This document shows positions 4,018-52,237 of a stretch of DNA of 64,000 nt, in pieces. Position 1 is the first letter of the stretch. Every line of letters begins with the position of its first letter. The notes below the pieces were generated by a model. It saw only the letters and a program-made list of their open reading frames with translations, ran no database searches and was not told where the DNA came from. A program made the translations under genes and the position numbers. The stretch is from contig OX485804.1 of the NCBI GenBank assembly GCA_950295325.1, positions 44,144,001-44,208,000 on the forward strand. Direction: 5' to 3'. Source of the DNA: Polytrichum commune (lineage: Eukaryota > Streptophyta > Polytrichopsida > Polytrichales > Polytrichaceae).

Positions 4018-4252
4018 TCACGAGGCAAACAACCACAGACACGAATCGGGTTCGCTGATCACGTCGTTCACAACCTTACGAGAAGTGGGCACAGCGAGAA
4101 GAGCATCCAATGTTTGAGGGGCTAAAAGGTAGGAAGTACTATCCCTACCGTGTGACCTGGTAAAAACGGGATCAAGGTAAGCAAGAACGGGCTCCCATTC
4201 ACGTCGGTGCAAATAAAAAGCACCGACGTTATTTATTTTTTGTTTATTTTTT
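4018..4252 (+). mobile_element. Truncated retroelement 3' end with hairpin and GTTATTT tail
   Basis: Ends with a perfect 10-bp stem (ACGTCGGTGC at 4201-4210, GCACCGACGT at 4220-4229), then GTTATTTATTTTTTG. The same layout of TTCACGTCGG, hairpin and GTTATT tail closes the LINE at 22971-23019 and the reversed copy at 63060-63100. No coding sequence is recognised upstream of the tail, and I found no convincing target duplication. Confidence 0.5.
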
Positions 4253-14746: not shown

Positions 14747-15400
14747 TTATTTGGAGCGGCACAGGTTGGAGAGTGGGGAGATATTTTGTTTGAGGATGTG
14801 TTTTTGGTGATAGTTTCCTAGGTATCTTCCATAACGAATTATGGGGGCTTGTGTGATTTGGGGATTAGTGATCCATGGGGCATTCCATAAGAGGTTGGAC
14901 CACCTTAGATGGATGTATTCATTGGATAGTTGTTTCACATGTAAGGGATTGTGTTGTTGGCATGGAAGATGAGTGCGCTTTTATTTTCTTTCTTTGTGTG
15001 ACTTTCGAGGTTATGGATGGAGTTGGTATGTTGGGAAGAGGTGGGAGGAATGGCTGGCCAAAATGGTCTTTGGAGTTCAATGTGATGGAAGGGCGTATGG
15101 ATTATGTGTGATTCTTCAGCTCCTATTTTGGCAAGTGTGTTGCTTTATCATTTCCAAATATATTGGTGTGTGCTCAAACTTTTTTGAATGGTTATGTTAC
15201 GTGTGGAAGTTTTGATGGCATGTATAATTTGTGCTTGAAGGAGCTTTAAGATAACCCCTTCTCCGATGAGGCCCTTCTTAAAGGTTTTGACCAAATTTGT
15301 GGTTATTGGGAAGTTTGATTGTTGCAAAGAACTTTCAAAACTCCATAGAACTGGAAGTCTCATCGGCATTAGTGACCTTCAAAGTTAAATCCTTTGTGCA
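14747..15400 (-). pseudogene. Decayed antisense copy of the RNase H LINE (relic 2)
   Basis: The plus strand is G/T-rich, so the minus strand has the A/C-rich composition of the LINE at 18902. Minus-strand translation of 15369-15148 contains 'TTNLVKTF' and 'VILKLLQAQ', in line with 'LASMVKIL' and 'ITLYKVRAH' of that LINE's RNase H. The peptide from 14938-14747 includes 'RYGRYLGNYHQKHIL', in line with 'FRTGTYMGNARKQMF'. The DGS and His/Asp residues are not conserved and frames change. The alignment is by eye. Confidence 0.5.
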
Positions 15401-16501: not shown

Positions 16502-17001
16502 GGGCACTTCACACACGAGACTGCAAGCCCGTGACCATTACACGTCAAGCACTCTCATTGGTGGAAAAGGCAGAGCCGGTCCAAGTTTGCTTCACACTAC
16601 GCTTGAGGGACCACCGGAGTTTGTGAATGCAAGATGGGTGTAAAGTCTACATGGATTCCCATGCGGAATCAAATGGATCATGTTTCATGGTCACTTGGAT
16701 TATTTCAAAAACCACCTCTTAGAGGTAAGCTTAATACAACACCAGGAGACCATGGCACTCTGAACGTTCACAACCGTTGGTTTATTCTATTTTATCATGC
16801 ATGAGGACCCACATGAATAGAAATTCATTGAAAATATAGCATTTGGTTGAGGGCCTTGTCACATATGACTTCACACTACACTTGAGGGTCTGTGACCACA
16901 ATACATGATTATGGAGGTGTCTTGAGATGGCCTTTGGACACTTTCTTTTGGGCTCTCACAATTTCATGGTCACGGCTCTTGGCTTGTGTGTGAAGTGACC
17001 C
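16502..17001. mobile_element. PIF/Harbinger-type MITE, family A copy 1
   Basis: About 500 bp, from GGGCACTTCACACACGAGAC to a right end reading GTGTGTGAAGTGACCC, its imperfect reverse complement. Flanks are GAA (16499-16501) and TAA (17002-17004), compatible with a mutated TAA duplication. Two further copies in the same orientation lie at 26616-27106 and 62015-62510. No transposase is encoded. Confidence 0.75.
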
Positions 17002-17223
17002 TAACTTATGAGTGTGTTTTCGGTACTTACGGAACATTGGAACAATTCCAATGGTCAAATACATATGTATATCCATTTTTGTTTTATTAGCTTTGTTCCG
17101 AATATGGAAATAACCCTTGAGCATTTTCCTCACTGAGATGAGTGTTCTTCACATCCATCTAAATTGAAATTTTATATTCAATGTACTTTACGTAACATGT
17201 TTGATTTGATTGTCAATTTAATC

Positions 17224-18883: not shown

Positions 18884-18901
18884 TTCTAGTATAATGTGAC
18901 A
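18884..18901. repeat. Left target-site duplication of the LINE
   Basis: TTCTAGTATAATGTGACA, identical over 18 bp to 23020-23037. It marks the 5' truncation point of the LINE. Confidence 0.92.
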
Positions 18902-21900
18902 AATTCTGCGAATGGGCAGGAATGGACCTAGGAATACCAAAATGCGCAGTAACTGGATACCCAAACAAATCTAAACTTAACCCCACAACCTTCAAGGCCC
19001 TAATCCAATCCACCAACATAAACTATAGAAACCAACCTATACCAGTCCTAAACCAACACGAACCCTACACATACCTAGGAATAAATCTTGCACCATCACT
19101 CAAGTGGAAAGCACAAATAAATACCACTACAGCTAAAGTAATCAAACAATGTCAAGCCCTCGTAGCATGCCCAGCTATTATGAAACAAAAAATCAACATG
19201 GCTGATACAGTCATACGCGCTGGAATAGCATATAGCTTTTATGCAGTACCATACTCTATACCAACCATAAAAAAACTTGACAAAAAGATCATCGCACTCC
19301 ATAAAATAATATGCGGAATACCCAAATACACATCTAATATTACTACACAACTCCCCCACAACCTATTTGGAATTGAAGCATTTTCACTACAAAATGCCTA
19401 CCTACGGTGTATTGGAGAGCAACTACAAAACATCCTTAACGATAAAGGCCGAATTGGCAAAATTTATACCGGCCTAACGCAATTTATACTTGCCAAATAC
19501 GGAGGTTCTAAAGAAATTACCCGTATTAAATACCACCACTGTGTTAGATCACCTATCACTAGAACATTATTTCTGCTCAAGCATAAAGCCGGAGTCTACC
19601 TTAAAAATACAATAAACAACTTCCTCCTACACCCATCCCCACTCGAAAACGCGTGGATGCAAGAAGCACAAATGCTACAGGGTCTAAATCCCAACACCTC
19701 ACTTAAACTATTACACAAACTGCTCATACATAATATAACAACACTAGACCAAATCACCATGCCTAATGGCACCACACTAATGAACCTAGACGAATTCAAA
19801 ATCTACCACTCCACCCCTTCCAAACTCATCCAAAGTGCTCTAAATATCGCTAATCAACTATTTTGCCAACCTCTCTGTAATCTCGAATGCCCCCTACCAT
19901 GCCAACGACACCATCCACCCAGATCCCTCAAAGACAAATATATATTAAGACACCACAACATTCTACCTCACCTACCGACTCCCCCCATACACCCCCCAAA
20001 CCCTCCCCTCCCCCCTCCCCCCAACAACATACTTAAGGACCCTCGACAATATCCCATATACAAAATACTTGATCACAAACAAAAACAATCTACCGACCAT
20101 AACAGAATAAAAATAACAGTCACGTCATACCTATGTCAATGGACTATAACAAATAACCACACATACAACAAATGACAAACTCCAAGGGACCTATACCCCT
20201 ATTGCGATGCCAACACATGTAACCACAACACCATCCTACTTACCCACTACTACACGGAAAGACAATGCAAACACCTCTCAAACATTATTAATGCCTACTT
20301 CTCCATCGAACAACAAAGAGACACGAAATATGTCATACCTACCACAATAATCCCACTAGCACATATCTCTATTAATGAATGTAACCCAGAAAATGACATC
20401 GAAACCAACTCCGATACTATCCAAATACAATTTGACGTCGCTCACTTATACGAAGATAATGGTAGGCACCTCATCACCATCCCGAAAACCAGACTAATGT
20501 GGTTATGGAAACAATACCAATTGGCAAAAAATACCACACATGGTCTAGAACCGCCCACCCAATCTTTCGAAACCGAAATGGTTTGGTTATATCAAAGATA
20601 CAAATACCGAATCCCGAAAAATGACCCACTCAAACGTGCCCAATACACAATACCAACCCCAATATTAGATCTCCTAATAACCACATTCAATATCAACCAG
20701 TCATACTTCTCATCCCCAATGATATGCCCCACGCAACTCACCCAATTATACTCGCCATTCTCGCGTGACATAATATTTGGATCCTTAGGGAAAGCATTTG
20801 ACCACAAATGGCAAGGAATAGGATACGCTCACCCCCACAACGCAATAGACTTACAACAAGCCATTCATTGGGCTCGCATGGCGGCCCAAAATGATCCATA
20901 TACAATCACTATACTTATATCTCCGGATACCGACTGGTACAAAAACCCAAACCCGCACATAGGTCCATTCCTGGACACACACATCATTGCCCACTTTGCA
21001 GCCGATACAATTGCATATGAAGAACCCACAATACCCCCCGAACTCAATATTACAAGAAAAGAACCGTCTACCCTACAAATATTTTGTATCCACCACCAAA
21101 ACAATAACATAGGCACCTATGAACAAATGAAATTACTAAAGGACATAGCAGACAATCTCCAAATATTACAAAGCCACACCCAAATTGCACCACCCACCCC
21201 TTCAAACATCACAGTGAACTCTAGTAAAAAATGGTCTAAATCAAACTACCCAAAGATACCCCCAAACAATAACACCCTCACCCCACAACTCCCAAACTAC
21301 CAAACGAACCTACCACTAAAATTCCACCCCCAATATAGCTACTACACTGATGGCTCCTTTATGAAACCCATAGAAATAGCCCCTGGGGAATGGAGAAGAG
21401 AAATAGCTGGATACGGTATCTACAGCCCCAAAGGGCTAAACATCGCCAATAGATTACATGGACATCAAAACATATTACGAGCAGAAATGATTGCTATACA
21501 CGAAACACTAAGCATCATCAACACACAATATCCCAACGAACCCGCATTCATATTCATAGACAGTCTAAATGTATTATACCTACTTAACACTCAAATTAAA
21601 CACCCCACACTTCATAATAGTCACCCAGACCAAACCACACTAGCCTCCATGGTAAAAATTCTTCAAAAAAGGACACAACCAATTACACTATACAAAGTTA
21701 GAGCACACGTCAACATTGACGGCAATAAAAAAGCAGACAAACTAGCAAAAGAAGGATTAGAATTAGAGCACAGAATTGCCGCCCACCCATACGAACATGC
21801 CCACGCCACCCCTTACTATTACCAAAAAGACGTATGGGCCTCGATGGAAGACATTCCGGACAAAGGCCCAGTTAGATTCTTAGAAAAACAAATTAAAAAA

Positions 21901-22801
21901 TATGATAGGGAAACGAACCTAGCAATCATGGCCACACAAACCCCCAACACCTGTAAATGGACAGAAAACATAGATATAGACAACGAGTTGTCGAACGAAT
22001 TCTGGACAAATCCCGCTATCATCGACAAACAAAAATCATGCCTCATCAAATTCCGCACAGGAACCTACATGGGTAATGCGAGAAAACAAATGTTTTTTGG
22101 CCACCAAAGATTTCCCACTATCACGTGCCCCATATGCAACTCAAATGAACCAGATACATGGATACATGTATTACTTACATGTAAACACCAACATATACAC
22201 TCACTTAGAGTTAAAAGACATAACAAAGCAGTCGGAGAAATTAGGAAGCTCCTAATCTCATCAGAAAAATCCCGATGCTTTACTCTCATGAATGCTGGCA
22301 TCTTCAATAACAACCCCCAAGAAAACACAGTCCCCAATTGGCTACTCCCCTGCACATATAGTACACAAAGATGTCACTGCAACGCAAGATTTAGACCTGA
22401 TATCCTTTGTGTTAAAGGACTACCCTATCAAAATGCCCCTCCCAGCGATGTCGACCCTAACCTTACCATACAATTCATTGAATTCACATACTGTAATGAC
22501 AGATTCTCCCCAGAAGCAATTGAAGCAAAAAAATAACAAATACAGCCCACTAATTGCTAGCATTGCTTCCAAAGGATGGAAAATCGAACCACTTATTGTC
22601 ATCACTACTGGTGCCAGAACGACTGCTCACATCCCATCTATGAAAGCACTAGAGACCAACTTCAAAATACCTATGGCCACCATCAAAAATACTTTCAAAA
22701 ATATTAACACCATTGCAATACAATATGCTATGTCTATTCTCCTCCATAAAAGGAGAATTGAAAACCACCAACCACTCCCCCAAAATCCAGACCCCCCATA
22801 A
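18901..22801 (+). pseudogene. LINE polyprotein: RT end, PCIF1-like fold, RNase H, zinc knuckle, PD-(D/E)XK endonuclease
   Basis: One frame runs from 18901 to 22536, broken only by a TGA at 20173-20175. The C-terminus continues in the next frame to 22801 after a slip in an A-run at about 22528. RT motif D/E remnants are 'GIPKC' and 'YLGI' (about 19072-19083). RNase H (21337-21756) keeps DGS, RAEM, IDS and a final KKAD, so all four acidic positions are present. The knuckle C-x2-C-x9-H-x4-C is at 22126-22182. The endonuclease has RPD (22393-22401), IEFTYCND (22477-22500), then a K..KY stretch and a GW..PLIVITTG block in the second frame. The protein is very rich in Asn, Thr, Pro, His and Gln, matching an A/C-biased strand. 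The catalytic YxDD lies in the lost 5' part, so this copy cannot be active. Confidence 0.8.
20647..21096 (+). other. PCIF1/CAPAM-like methyltransferase fold inside the LINE
   Basis: Between the RT and RNase H, the translated segment shows in order a 'YFSSP' block, 'YSPFSRDIIFGSLG', a Gly-containing turn 'GIGYAHPHN', a helix with 'ARMAA', and a strand ending 'ISPDTDW'. PCIF1-family cap-adenosine N6-methyltransferases have the matching series F/Y-A-S-P, S-x-F-x-D-x-x-FGS-x-G, NPPF and a strand ending in F-x-P-x-W. The catalytic NPPF position reads HPHN here. The resemblance was found by eye; an ancient or inactive methyltransferase is my reading. An unrelated Rossmann-like segment is the alternative. 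Confidence 0.5.
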
Positions 22802-22970
22802 CTCAGAACTTAAAAGTTAGGGTAAGGGGCAAGGGGTATTATATTAGGCGTAGTTTACATTAATGGTTTCTTGTGTCTAAAGTGTCTACTCTCGAAAGGG
22901 GGGAGTAGATCTTCTCCTTCATACCTCTGTCCTGTGGGCTTGGGATTGAAGGTAGATCGAACAGACACTT

Positions 22971-23019
22971 AATTCACGTCGGTCTCCTTCGGAAACCGAA
23001 GTTGTTATTATTATTATTA
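22971..23019 (+). other. LINE 3' terminus: TTCACGTCGG, hairpin, ATT repeat
   Basis: CTTCGG (22987-22992) pairs with CCGAAG (22996-23001) around an AAA loop, followed by GTTGTTATT and further ATT units to the duplication. Non-LTR elements of stringent type recognise such 3' structures. That role is inferred from the shared ends at 4201, 13088 and 63080. Confidence 0.6.
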
Positions 23020-23037
23020 TTCTAGTATAATGTGACA
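23020..23037. repeat. Right target-site duplication of the LINE
   Basis: Identical 18-bp copy of 18884-18901. Confidence 0.92.
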
Positions 23038-26615: not shown

Positions 26616-27106
26616 GGGCCACTCCACACACAAAGATTGAGAGCCCATGACCGTTACACGTCAAGCACTCTTATTGGTGGAAAAGGCAAGTTCTCTTCAC
26701 ACTACGCTCAAGGGACCAACGGAGTATGTGAATGCAAGATGGATGTTAAAGTCTACATGGATTCCTACATGGCATCAATGGGTCATGTTTCATGGTCACT
26801 TGGATTATTTTCAAAAACCACCTCTTGGAGGTAGGTCTAACACAAAACCAGGAGACCATGGCACTCCAAATGCTCACAACCGTTGGTTTAATCTATGTTA
26901 TCATGTGTGAGGAGGACCCTCATGAGTAGAGATTCATTGAAACAACGTTCGGTTGAGGGCCCGGTCACAAATGACTGCACACTATGCTTGAGGGTCCATG
27001 ACCACACCACATGATTTTGGAAGTGTGTTGAGACGGCCTTTGGACACTTTTTTTGGGCTCTCACAATTTCATGGTCACGGCTCTTGGCTTGTGTGTGAAG
27101 TGGCCC
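26616..27106. mobile_element. PIF/Harbinger-type MITE, family A copy 2
   Basis: About 491 bp, GGGCCACTCCACACAC to GTGTGTGAAGTGGCCC, collinear with copies 1 and 3 (ACGTCAAGCACTCTTATTGG, ATGGCATCAATGGGTCATGT, TTGGGCTCTCACAATTTCAT). The right flank TAA runs directly into the 27108 duplication. Confidence 0.8.
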
Positions 27107-27107
27107 T

Positions 27108-27414
27108 AATACCATAAACGGGTGCGTGTATAAGGAAAAGTCAGTGGTGCCGGTTCATGCAAGAATACGGGGCCATGACATCATAGTGTTCTAAACTTCT
27201 AAATTTGTTGGGATGAGAAATTTGACCTTCGATTTGCCAAGATGGCATCATCATAGAGGACCCCCCCCCCACCCACCCCTAATATTACTCCATCTTATTT
27301 CAGACACCTCCAAGTTTAGATTATATGTTCGTTGATCCCCATTATTATATTCCCCCAACTATCAGGGTAGATGGCAGAGCTCAAAAAGCTCTAACATCAA
27401 GGAGGGTAAGTGCT
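27108..27414. repeat. Dispersed direct duplication, copy 2
   Basis: Second copy of 25711-26053, about 1.4 kb downstream in the same orientation. It begins with the CCATAAACGGGTG end motif of the element at 25254. Confidence 0.8.
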
Positions 27415-36780: not shown

Positions 36781-38821
36781 GTCAGAGTGATCAGCAGAAG
36801 CATCTAGTCTTGTCTATATGTATGTTGTAGCGTCGGAGGGGTTAGGCCGCATTGGGTTTGGGGAAACCAATTACTGGGAAGGGCATCGGCCTCTGATGGG
36901 TCAGGATTGTGGTGGGTTGAGAATAAGGAGTGGAGTGGAGTGGAGGTGAGGGGCACTTCGGTGAGGGAGGAGGGAGTGGCATTGAGGGGAGTCGGGGATG
37001 TGGAGTGCAGAGTAGGGTGAAGGGAAGGAGGTTGGAGTGCAGTTAGTTGGTTAGTTAGTAAGTGAGAGGTTGAGTGGGAGGTGGATGAATGCCAGCTGCG
37101 GCATTGGGGTGGTACATATCGGATGGTGAAGATTGAGAGGACCTGGGTTGTCAGTGGATTTAGGGGGGGGAGTACATCACCTGGAATCGAGGGTTAGTGG
37201 GAGAGAAGAATAGAGAGCAGAGGGTACCTGATGAATGCGACACTGCGATTTGAGTAAAACTATTTCTCTTCCCTGGCAGCTGGAAGAATCAGTGTGAAAC
37301 TGGTTGCTTAGAAATCAGTTGTGTCCCACCACCGGTTGCCATCGCCGAGTACCAACTGTGTACAGGTCCCCATCGCCTTGTGCCGCAATTTCCTTTGTCC
37401 TCTTGGGACGTAGCATTGGTGGTGTCTGGTAACGCGGAGCAGCAACTTGTGTCCAAGAGTACCGCACCAATCTCATCAGCCCCTCAAGCCTACCCCCAAC
37501 ACTTTCATGTCCAGATCATGAGCTGTACCGAATAGGATCAAAGCTCCTCAGTGACTCCACACTTCTGACGCCGGCGAAGCTGATGCTAGGAAATTGATGT
37601 GCAGACAACAGGACATCGGGAATCTTGCTCTACCAGACACCCCGCGACACCAGACACCCACTTCAATAGCCAGATCTGACGGAGAACCGACACGGGCCGT
37701 AATTCAAGCTTCCTGTTAACCCATTTCGCAGGGTGGCTGACTTCCATCATCAATCAAGTTCGCAGGGAAGGATAGGTATTTCTGTAGGCCACTGGGACTT
37801 CGAGGAGCGAGCTCTCTGTCTGTGGTTGTGGTTTTGGTCTACACCAGGAATCGCTTGGAGCAGAGACTGATTGATTTTCATGAGCATAAGGTAGTTGCAT
37901 TCCATCATCCGTACGCTGGTCGGGTCCTACAGTCCATTAAGTCCACCTCTGGAACGAGAGCGGAGTTTGATGTGCCAACATGTTAAAACCTTGCGGCTTT
38001 TGGGGGTAACCCCCAGGTTAGGAATGATTATGATGTTCTGAGTTGAGGAATAATGTCAGTTTGCACTCATATGGTCAGCTGCTTCCAATTTGCGTGAACA
38101 TGTAAGGAACATTGCGAAAGTTAAACACCCTCGAGGTGTTCATGCCGCGACGTAGGAACGCGAGGCTGGTGGTGACTGTAATAGACTTACTGTCAATGCT
38201 ATGTAGAGAGACCTGCACGACAAGGATGGCTTGACAATCTCAGTACTTTCTCAGGCTCATGTTTCATGTCAAGAGCAAAATAAACAAGAGTTTTTTTCTT
38301 TTCTTTTCTTTTCAATCGTTACCGGCTCTCCGTAATGTAGTCTGCCTGTGCATTGGGGAAACTAGACTGTCTCATTATCGTCAAGCTCATGATGACCAAG
38401 TTGTCAGAGTCGCCTCGAAGGCCAACAGACGCTAGTTGTGATCGCCTCCTTTCGATTAGAAGCACTGTGCTGGAGTGCCTTGCTCATGTATTTGAGGGTT
38501 GGTTTGGTTTTGTGAATGGGTCTAGAAACGAATTCTGTGAACGAGTGATCGGAACAAAGCAGTGGTTTGTACATGGTCAGTTTGCAGTGTGTTGCGTTGG
38601 TTGTCTCACCGCTGTTGCATGCATTGTGGTGGAGCAGTGCAGGCAGACATTTTGCAACGAAGGAGATGACCGGAGGCATGCTTGACCTGCACATGACATC
38701 CGGCAACGAGAAGTTTTTCATTTACGCGCACTTCTCTTTAGCACACGTCCTATAGCACGGCCAGTGAAGCGCACACAAACGCAAAAGACTTGACCCGCAT
38801 TGCCGGTATTCTGTTGGTTCC
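36781..38821 (+). other. Probable long 5' leader, perhaps with introns, of the bHLH gene
   Basis: No protein domain seen. A strong acceptor-like sequence CTATTTCTCTTCCCTGGCAG ends at 37280, so a leader intron is plausible. An open frame at 38353-38685 (110 codons) ends 136 bp before the main ATG. It has no recognisable domain and could act as an upstream ORF. The leader assignment rests on position and moderate GC content only. Confidence 0.35.
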
Positions 38822-50250: not shown

Positions 50251-51169
50251 ATGCCCAATCATTTCCAAGTTGTTTTAGCTTGTAAAGGAGGTTGAACGAA
50301 TTATTAATTTATAGGTAGATGTAGGTTACAAAACTAAGTCAATGTATATGGTTATCTTCATATCATTGTTTCTTCATGTGTAGTTTTGCAATAGACATAA
50401 GACTTTGGAAATGATGTACTAAACTATGACTTTTAACTTACATAAGTGAAAGTATTTATGTTCTTGTTTTTTATTTGCCTAGCATTGTGTTGAAAATTAA
50501 TGTAGTAAAGTCATTGACTCAACTTCGAGAGTCAATATATAATATGAGGGGAAGAAGATAGAGTGATATCAGAGGTGAGCGCTCACATGTCACCTTAAAG
50601 AATATCTATGTAGTACCATAGAGGGCTTTTTTTATTTCGACACACATTAATTATTTTTCCCTCAAATTTTGCCACATGTCATGCTCACATTCACTAAGTC
50701 AATATCTTAGTGACATTCACTAAGTCAATATTCCACATGGAAACTACATTTTGACACAGATAAAGATGAAATAGAGAGCCCTCTCCAATATTTTTTACTA
50801 CAATTAGCCTTTAAAAGGTTGGGTGGATTGCAAGTGTACTATCATTAAGCCCCAAAAATCCTACTTTTACTTAAATCTTAGTTGCACTTTAGCTTTCAAT
50901 GTCTTGACATTTTCTTTTGTCACTCCATAGACAAGAACTTCCACTTCCTTATTTTACTTTTACTGTTTTCTTACTTTACTTTTCATTACTTTTATTTTCT
51001 TTATTTTCTTTCAACTATAGATTGAACACATTCAACTTTAAATCATTTTCTGCATACTTCACTCTACTTGACTACTCGCAGGATCAACGAAGTAATGAAT
51101 TCTTTTGCTGCAACCGCATGATTGACAACATAATTTGTCATAACATCCTCCAATATCATGTAATATAAT
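50251..51169 (+). promoter_or_regulatory. Upstream region of the kinase gene
   Basis: AT-rich with pyrimidine tracts (about 50940-51015, TTTTACTTTTACTG and TTTATTTTCTTT) that could be a leader. A CATTCACTAAGTCAATAT direct repeat lies at about 50689 and 50715. No start site or TATA box is certain. Confidence 0.35.
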
Positions 51170-52237
51170 ATGATGGGGGACACTACAACAATGGCGGAGA
51201 GTTTTCGAATGCTTCTAATGCAATCCCGAGATAACTGTCAAACTCTCCATCCAAGCTCCAACTTGGGGGATCTCACAGTTCCTCCGAGGGTGTTCCCATA
51301 TGACACCGGAAACATAAGGGACTGGTATGACATGGACACGGTTTCGGTTTTGGGATCAGGCTCAAGCTCCACCATGTTCAAATGCTTTGAGCGTGGCACC
51401 ACTTCAAAGCCACCGTATGCATGCAAAGTGATCCCGAAAGCAGACCCGTTCAACACATTCCCGAGAATTCGACAAGAAGTGAAGATCTTGTTTGCGTTGC
51501 AACACCAACCCAACATCATCACCCTACACGACGTGTTTGAGGACGCCGATTACGTGTACCTCGTGATGGAGCTCGGCAATGGTGGCGAGCTTCTGGACGA
51601 CTTCAACCGGCGGTACCGAAATGCCGACCCCGCGCAGCGGCCGTTGCCGCCTCTGTACTCGGAGGCGGAGGCAGCAAGCATCATGTTCCAAATCATGAGC
51701 GCCATCCGGGCGTGTCAATCGGTGGGTGTTGTACACCGGGATCTTAAGCCGGAAAACATTCTGATCGTCAACAAGGATGAGGACGGTTTACCGACGATCA
51801 AGGTCATTGATTTCGGGCTTTCTACCTTCACCCAACCCGGCGAGGTTTTGCACGAGCTCGTCGGGACCCTCCTGTATATAGCACCAGAAGTGGCTCGACA
51901 AGCATATGGTGGTGAAGCCGATGTTTGGAGCGCAGGGTGCATCATGTTCATCCTCCTTTGCGGATACCACCCCTTCCAACGTGCCTTGTATAGCGGTGTG
52001 AGAGAGCTCGTCGCGGCTCAAACCAACCTTCAGAGCCTCCTGTTTCGGGCACCGAGTTGCATTGAAGGGTTTAAGTCCATTTCGAGTGTCGGACAGGATC
52101 TCCTCCGTAACATGTTAATGGTGGATTCATCTGTGCGATTGACGGTTGATGAGTTTTTTGAGCATCCATGGATAACACGCCACATGGGAAAATGTCAGAA
52201 CTCACAAACAAGAGAACGTCATGAATGGCGAGTTTGA
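51170..52237 (+). CDS. CDPK-type (CaMK group) serine/threonine protein kinase without EF hands, intronless
   Basis: 355 residues in one exon. After an N-terminal extension of about 55 residues comes a full kinase domain (about 57-336). It shows the catalytic Lys K86 (YACK), Glu E103, HRDLKPEN (D191, N196), DFG (D214-G216), APE (238-240), 'DVWSAG' and subdomain XI Arg (R323), ending 'FFEHPWI'. All catalytic residues are present, so phosphotransfer is plausible. The Gly loop reads GSGSSS: its third Gly is Ser. A Pro-rich insertion ('NADPAQRPLPPLY', 151-163) lies between alpha-D and alpha-E. No EF hands or autoinhibitory segment follow, so the layout is like PEP-carboxylase kinase or CDPK-derived kinases, not a true CDPK. 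Two ATGs start the frame. Substrate unknown; cytosol or nucleus likely (no signal or membrane segment; the N-terminus lacks a MGxxxS myristoylation motif at the first ATG). Confidence 0.88.
   Translation: MMGDTTTMAESFRMLLMQSRDNCQTLHPSSNLGDLTVPPRVFPYDTGNIRDWYDMDTVSVLGSGSSSTMFKCFERGTTSKPPYACKVIPKADPFNTFPRIRQEVKILFALQHQPNIITLHDVFEDADYVYLVMELGNGGELLDDFNRRYRNADPAQRPLPPLYSEAEAASIMFQIMSAIRACQSVGVVHRDLKPENILIVNKDEDGLPTIKVIDFGLSTFTQPGEVLHELVGTLLYIAPEVARQAYGGEADVWSAGCIMFILLCGYHPFQRALYSGVRELVAAQTNLQSLLFRAPSCIEGFKSISSVGQDLLRNMLMVDSSVRLTVDEFFEHPWITRHMGKCQNSQTRERHEWRV

Follow-up and report, generated by a model that had tools for sequence, protein, structure and literature searches.

Among the long interspersed elements (LINEs), those of the R2 clade combine a restriction-like endonuclease (RLE) with a CCHC zinc knuckle and are not known to carry an apurinic/apyrimidinic-type endonuclease (APE) or an RNase H, and a structured 3' untranslated region (UTR) has a known role in R2. 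L1 elements generally have an APE in front of the reverse transcriptase (RT) and show target-site duplications (TSDs) and 5' truncation. A further type, Dualen or RandI of green algae, was reportedly treated by Kojima and Fujiwara in 2005, a work known to us through the papers that cite it. According to the accessible portions of the literature, to which all statements credited to a PMC number in this text are limited, Dualen/RandI are LINEs that code for both an APE and an RLE (PMC3636483, PMC4640811), RNase H is listed for them (PMC4640811), and Dualen has been cited as evidence for the replacement of one LINE endonuclease by another (PMC4640811). Their range was given in 2015 as green algae only (Table 3 of PMC4438587); they are reported from Chlamydomonas and its relatives (PMC8226300), and LINE/Dualen annotations exist in cryptophytes (PMC12747079). 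The RNase H of plant L1 elements is archaeal-like, with an R (PMC4640811), and 2A-like sequences are found at the N-terminus of LINEs in trypanosomes and sea urchin (PMC4981915). No report of Dualen/RandI from a land plant was found among the papers listed in the literature searches, which did not extend to Repbase, Dfam and most subscription papers. Here we describe an insertion in a 64,000-nt stretch of the genome of the moss Polytrichum commune (contig OX485804.1, positions 44,144,001 to 44,208,000), hereafter the window, together with its relatives elsewhere in the genome (designated by L-numbers).

The insertion is best explained, with a probability of roughly 0.84, as a dead, 5'-truncated member of a multi-family and recently active Dualen-like LINE. 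The assembly searched comprises 407.8 Mb in 64 contigs, nearly all of it in seven contigs of 42-78 Mb. A 786-aa part of the window copy gave at least 57 matches with 86-100% identity, its own included (57 candidates scored of 5988), and these are dispersed over all seven large contigs. With PF12237, the profile of a PCIF1-like domain discussed below, at least 150 matches were obtained, all above the Pfam cut-off (150 scored of 697 candidates), and none in 14 control genomes. Nine loci of 10 kb were then read; as they had been picked for their long frames, they do not represent a random sample. Six natural copies have a single uninterrupted frame (2625 aa in L009, L010, and L011, 2919 aa in L015, 2924 aa in L016, and 2663 aa in L017), and L018, L019, and L020 have broken frames. 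The single long protein of the intact copies contains, in this order, a 2A-like peptide, APE, RT, PCIF1-like domain, RNase H, CCHC knuckle, and R2-type RLE. In the L009 frame Pfam finds RVT_1 at residues 1121-1387 (E 1.1e-29), PCIF1_WW at 1871-1966 (E 3.6e-10), and RNase_H at 2139-2279 (E 7.3e-13). Since L015, L018, and L020 are about 64% identical to L009 in protein over most of the L009 length (49% in the N-terminal part of L018), several families coexist. On the other side of the scale L010 and L011 are 99.5% and 99.1% identical to L009 over about 9.7 kb, so that movement was recent. A still more distant family of the same genome is seen past the 3' end of the L008 copy, where L008:4857-5354 (-) holds an RLE relative with 38% identity (E 3e-27).

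The window copy itself consists of the following parts.

18884-18901, no strand: 5' copy of the TSD, TTCTAGTATAATGTGACA, 18 bp, exactly repeated at 23020-23037.
18902-23019, + strand: insertion body of a Dualen-like non-long-terminal-repeat retrotransposon, 5'-truncated and disabled, bounded by the TSDs and by alignment to intact copies.
18902-19368, + strand: C-terminal part of the RT, the palm with YADD being absent; 93% identity to residues 1324-1480 of the L009 open reading frame.
20173-20175, + strand: in-frame stop TGA, absent from the intact copy L009 by comparison.
20539-20817, + strand: PCIF1-like methyltransferase-derived domain with AHPH at the place of NPPF; PF12237 E 7.4e-8 in the window.
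21325-21777, + strand: RNase H domain of the D/E/D/H/D type; PF00075 E 3.7e-11, alignment, and mapping.
22126-22182, + strand: zinc knuckle C-x2-C-x9-H-x4-C, CPICNSNEPDTWIHVLLTC; alignment and mapping.
22360-22693, + strand: RLE (PD, E, K-x3-Y) with a frameshift inside at about 22520-22548; alignment, AlphaFold2 model, PDB fold search, and mapping.
22881-23003, + strand: structured 3' UTR, a closed multi-helix domain and a terminal hairpin; z-score -2.86 in the window copy, eight pairs with two-sided change over ten sequences.
23004-23019, + strand: microsatellite-like 3' tail (TTA)n, read from the sequence.
23020-23037, no strand: 3' copy of the TSD, TTCTAGTATAATGTGACA, exact repeat of 18884-18901.

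As TTCTAGTATAATGTGACA flanks the insertion on both sides and occurs nowhere else in the window when both strands are scanned, the body is exactly 18902-23019, the very interval that the initial annotation had assigned to a LINE combining RNase H, zinc knuckle, and RLE. The last bases of the 5' duplication also fit the element, i.e., there is microhomology at the truncation point. The intact L009 protein aligns to the body in two pieces with 87% and 84% identity. The window copy is dead, because it begins inside the RT after YADD, carries a TGA at 20173-20175, and has one frameshift near 22520-22548. Its three annotated protein features were all recovered: the RNase H at the E-value given above, the knuckle at 22126-22182, and the RLE motifs, which read RPDILC...IEF and, past the frameshift, KQKNNKY...GWKIEPLIVITTG.

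The presence of an APE in full-length copies, named in the same annotation as a finding that would support a Dualen-like lineage, was observed, in one frame with RNase H, knuckle, and RLE. It lies upstream of the RT at about residues 505-800 of the L009 frame. Searched as a separate piece it is matched by PF14529 in 6/6 sequences (best E 7.8e-10) and by PF03372 in 6/6 (best E 4.1e-7), the L009 sequence itself falling below the curated cut-offs (1.9e-4 and 0.0081), and it is not listed in a Pfam scan of the whole L009 frame. The catalytic motifs TWN, QET, YMP, GDFN, D218, and SDH are invariant in the alignment. Upstream of the APE all nine 10-kb loci have a 2A-like motif, GDIxxNPGP followed by MPN, and the E of DxExNPGP is retained in six of them (L009, L010, L011, L015, L019, and L020). 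Judged from these motifs, 2A-like release is plausible for several families, not for all; the M directly after the motif might alternatively serve as the start of translation. In L009 neither the N-terminal domain nor the stretch before the 2A-like motif is matched by Pfam at E 1. A chromodomain in front of the PCIF1-like domain looked right by eye and is not significant: PF00385 matched two of seven rows (six distinct loci, L013 and L015 belonging to the same genomic copy) with a best E of 0.026, the L009 row scored 13.3 bits against a cut-off of 25.1, and no PDB match was seen up to E 10.

At the C-terminal end the D/E/D/H/D positions of the RNase H are invariant in nine aligned rows, which for the same reason represent eight distinct loci with the window included, and the fourth position is H in 8/8. 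In the C-terminal 296 aa the C-C-H-C knuckle is invariant, and PD, E, and K-x3-Y are found in 7/7 sequences. An AlphaFold2 model of this part has a mean predicted local distance difference test score (pLDDT) of 66.7, with the RLE mostly at 67-90 in blocks of ten residues. A fold search of the PDB with the RLE model returned six matches at E <= 0.001, all of them R2 retrotransposon proteins (2.2e-5 to 6.7e-4), so that structure prediction supports the RLE. The next matches, with non-significant E-values, were a spliceosome chain, which we take to be Prp8, and cap-snatching endonucleases, presumably of the PD-(D/E)XK type.

Between RT and RNase H lies the PCIF1-like domain. PCIF1 is the cap-adjacent m6Am methyltransferase, and NPPF is its catalytic motif. 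PF12237 is matched by all nine aligned rows (eight distinct loci), best at E 1.1e-13, the window copy at 7.4e-8 lying just over the cut-off. FGS-G and the surrounding positions align with solved PCIF1. The place of NPPF (EANPPF in solved PCIF1) is taken by AHPH in seven and AHPP in one of the eight distinct loci; because NPPF is replaced in all eight, methyl transfer is unlikely, and the domain is probably methyltransferase-derived and non-catalytic. Nothing relevant on PCIF1 in retroelements was found among the papers listed in the literature searches. Iyer et al. in 2016 reportedly discuss PCIF1-like domains in mobile elements.

Selection was measured as pairwise NG86 ratios of nonsynonymous to synonymous change (dN/dS) between copies of different families, where dS was computable. 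The values were 0.04-0.21 for the APE, 0.05-0.10 for the RT, 0.08-0.20 for the PCIF1-like domain, 0.06-0.23 for RNase H, 0.09-0.14 for the RLE, 0.11-0.27 for the N-terminal domain, and 0.08-0.28 for the region from RT to PCIF1-like domain. Constraint is weaker in the approximately 100 aa before the 2A-like motif (0.29-0.44). As dS exceeds 1 or is not computable for most of the distant pairs, the near trio L009, L016, and L019 weighs most, and here dN/dS is 0.04-0.14 in every domain but the stretch before the 2A-like motif (dS is just above 1 for two of the values, and the region that precedes the PCIF1-like domain is represented by one near pair only). The APE, the RLE, and the other tested parts are thus under purifying selection, and the values in the near trio show that both nucleases are maintained.

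The RNA structure of the 3' UTR is conserved. It occupies the last 123 nt before the tail and consists of a closed multi-helix domain and a terminal hairpin; the RNAalifold consensus of ten sequences has 33 pairs, and two-sided change is seen in 8 of them. Counted over pairs and sequences 96.3% of cells are paired, and two-sided change is seen in 29 cells against 11.6 +- 2.7 in shuffled alignments (0/500 reach 29), counts that are biased towards the structure, since the sequences counted are those that served to derive it and include close relatives. Sliding the partner columns by 1-3 lowers pairing to 31-54%, and single-sequence folds of four copies have z-scores of -2.86 (the window copy), -3.98, -3.41, and -6.66. 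Against the structure it must be said that two-sided change affects as many as 8 pairs in 25/500 shuffles and that further pair types are no more frequent than in shuffles (484/500 as high). The tails vary even between near-identical copies and are of the (TTA)n, (TCTA)n, and CTT/CTCTT types. Besides the 18-bp duplication of the window, a TSD of 12 bp was found in L010, with about 12.0 kb between the duplications. A search for SINE partners (short interspersed elements) sharing the 3' end yielded none: twelve further 3' ends were read (40 scored of 425 candidates), none of them SINE-like. In eleven of the twelve, element sequence covers all of the roughly 1.8 kb that were read upstream, apart from a deletion inside L040, whereas in L035 it ends after about 1.0 kb; L037 and L038 are identical in their 3' flank and may go back to a single insertion that was duplicated.

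At the other end the similarity of L009 and L010 extends past the frame into a 5' region with 48-56-bp tandem repeats. In two copies of the element (L024 and L025) the 5' region has tandem repeats of 48-56 bp and of 18 bp. The start of L010 lies at or just before the 48-56-bp repeats, and L009 has further similar sequence upstream. The 5' region also contains a 181-codon frame opposite to the element strand, of the same length and in the same place in the three near-identical copies (L009:9117-9662 (+), L010:9101-9646 (+), L011:9131-9676 (+)).

The relationships of the RT bear on the rival explanations. The improbable but best surviving alternative is that an RLE-only lineage, similar to R2, NeSL, or Utopia, gained APE and RNase H independently and that the likeness to Dualen is convergence. 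It is favoured by the RLE fold, which matches R2, and by the RT profile, whose best scores in the PDB are those of two vertebrate R2 proteins (three chains at 114.5, 108.8, and 108.3 bits). However, Bombyx R2 (70.2 and 66.2 bits) does no better than chain 8c8j (71.7 bits), which we take to be L1 ORF2p, so the RT is not clearly R2-like. A tree was built from ten RT sequences, i.e., four element copies, three L1 elements of this genome, two R2, and one group II intron (a plasmid RT record, L032, as outgroup), over 403 columns and under three models; it contained no Dualen, NeSL, RTE, or Utopia sequence. The element copies form a clade (99/100) apart from L1 (100/100) and R2 (99.9-100/100), with identities of 18-27% between the four groups, and the tree, with weak support, does not join the element to R2. 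The domain set, moreover, equals the published description of Dualen as far as it is accessible (PMC3636483, PMC4640811). Relatives were looked for outside this genome as well. Three scans of viral contigs, with the PCIF1-like, RLE, and RT alignments, and one scan of prokaryote genomes gave pattern matches and no relative confirmed by tblastn; tblastn of plasmids with the RT gave 214 records, and of the eight listed six bear the annotation of a group II intron RT, the remaining two being unannotated. Of the plasmid records L032 entered the tree and L033 was left out.

Very improbable is the capture of an RLE by a plant L1. Plant L1 elements are reported to have an RNase H (PMC4640811), and there are many genome matches, at least 141, to zf-RVT, the C-terminal finger of plant L1 (150 scored of 322 candidates). 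Near such matches L029, L030, and L031 have frames of 1440, 1476, and 1265 aa with APE motifs by eye (L031 is cut within the APE), and no RLE motif was seen in the three by eye. Yet the RT of the element is no nearer to these L1s (20-25% identity) than to R2 (23-27%) or the group II intron (20-24%), and its fourth RNase H position is H in 8/8 loci where the archaeal-like enzyme of plant L1 has R (PMC4640811). The copies join the L1s under none of the three models; the grouping of full-length copies with plant L1, which according to the initial annotation would speak against a Dualen-like element, was thus not observed. Finally, nested or adjacent insertions of different elements misread as one, an idea suggested by the stop and frameshift that fragment the window copy, are refuted by the six copies at different sites with one uninterrupted frame across the domains, the same domain order being kept in families about 64% identical.

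Several observations nevertheless weigh against a Dualen-like LINE with the architecture described here. First, the deep order of the tree is loose: the joining of R2 and L1 is weak (SH-aLRT 54-74, bootstrap 64-71 over the three models), and no Dualen reference was included. Second, the RLE model, with the mean pLDDT of 66.7, is of moderate quality and was built from seven rather close sequences, residues 47-92 of the C-terminal model, with the knuckle inside, are below 50, and the R2 fold matches have TM-scores of 0.40-0.43 and a root-mean-square deviation of 7.7-8.9. RNase H is matched by PF00075, the profile named in the initial annotation, and the sequence profile of the RLE alone has no PDB or Pfam match. 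Third, the PCIF1-like profile finds in the PDB, up to E 10, two PCIF1 sequences only, presumably of fish and human, at the weak E-values of 0.02 and 0.025, and an AlphaFold2 model of the domain failed (mean pLDDT 44.5). Fourth, the 2A-like motif is altered in 3/9 loci, E to K in L016 and L017 and E to H in L018. Fifth, TSDs were found in two copies only and none for L009, L011, and L035, where it is not clear that the reading extended to the 5' end. How the two nucleases share their work, too, is something that we only infer.

With these reservations the Dualen-like LINE may be pictured to move as follows. The mRNA would be transcribed from the long 5' region with tandem repeats, and in families that keep the 2A-like motif ribosomes could release the upstream peptide before the polyprotein. 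The RT would recognise the structured 3' UTR. It is conceivable that the first nick is made by the APE at sites of little specificity, because the TSDs and dispersed sites resemble those of APE-type LINEs. Target-primed reverse transcription may then slip at the 3' end to give the short repeat tails, RNase H would remove the RNA template, and second-strand cleavage would follow when knuckle and RLE bind the target, resulting in a duplication of 12-18 bp. As the weakest step, it is tempting to speculate that the PCIF1-like domain, which has lost its catalytic motif, most likely persists because it binds RNA or the cap and so helps the protein to hold its own transcript. The full scenario, in which a dual-endonuclease lineage thought to be algal survived into land plants and is still mobile, captured a PCIF1-type methyltransferase and turned it into a non-catalytic cap- or RNA-binding module, uses 2A-like release, and divides the two strand cuts between its endonucleases, we regard as rather doubtful in its entirety. 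If true, the lineage would stand, still living, between the RLE-type and the APE-type LINEs. With its many copies, several unbroken frames, 99% identity, and selection on both nucleases, the moss would be a land-plant host suited to assigning each cut to one of the nucleases and to asking what keeps a methyltransferase-derived domain and a 2A-like peptide in place.

Other features of the window may be mentioned briefly. At 4118-4230 (+) a weak match to the 3'-UTR structure model (19.5 bits, E 0.0046) ends in the hairpin CGTCGGTGC...GCACCGACG, followed by TTATTTATTT, and may derive from the 3' end of a more distant family that has decayed; a search of the window start for a possible second copy gave no match to the protein at E 1e-3, and the frame 2-493 has no Pfam match at E 1. 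A third match to the model lies at 37866-37967 (E 0.6). Positions 1-2000 are strongly C-rich on the + strand. At 15126-15182 (-) a short sequence similar to the C-terminal motif of RNase H, AHTNIFGNDKA, with a stop (E 0.28), may be another decayed minus-strand copy; GC skew is positive at 14-16 kb. A dispersed repeat occurs twice, at 16518-17004 and 26634-27109, about 10.1 kb apart and 85-97% identical in blocks. A protein kinase frame of 357 aa lies at 51164-52237 (+) (Pkinase E 9.2e-60) and is by eye similar to calcium-dependent kinases. Elsewhere in the genome LEAFY is found at three places (L021, L022, and L023), and two LEAFY exons match 4bhk best (E 9.6e-65 and 2.3e-59) as compared with 2vy1, PROTEIN LEAFY (5.5e-50 and 3.6e-53); we take these to be LEAFY of Physcomitrium patens and Arabidopsis, respectively. 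The better match to 4bhk indicates a moss, and seven chromosomes would suit Polytrichaceae. In the motif MRxYVHC the H is present in L021 and replaced by D in L022, a position that we assume to be the specificity switch between moss and flowering-plant LEAFY, and one genome with both variants would be notable.

Compared with known systems, the moss element resembles plant L1 in having an APE before the RT, TSDs, and 5' truncation, and differs from it by its RLE, an RNase H with H instead of R, a tail of short repeats instead of poly(A), and an RT far from that of the three L1s. With R2 it shares the CCHC motif and RLE fold, vertebrate R2 as the best PDB matches of its RT, and a structured 3' UTR; unlike R2 it also encodes an APE and an RNase H, is dispersed over all seven large contigs, and has TSDs of 12 and 18 bp. 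Its PCIF1-like domain is like PCIF1 in scoring above the PF12237 cut-off in 8/8 distinct loci and in aligning over the FGS-G region, and unlike PCIF1 in the change of NPPF to AHPH or AHPP and in being embedded in a LINE polyprotein. The GDIExNPGP-type motif upstream of the APE recalls the 2A-bearing LINEs of trypanosomes and sea urchin (PMC4981915), from which the moss element differs as a dual-endonuclease plant element with the E replaced by K or H in 3/9 loci. Like Dualen/RandI it has all three structural hallmarks, APE, RNase H, and RLE, in one LINE; it also carries a PCIF1-like domain and a 2A-like peptide, both of which algal Dualen may share, and its host is a land plant, in contrast to the green algae and, later, cryptophytes of the known range. 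These comparisons support a Dualen-like element in a land plant, classed by its domain set rather than by RT kinship, a classification that implies neither vertical persistence nor horizontal gain.

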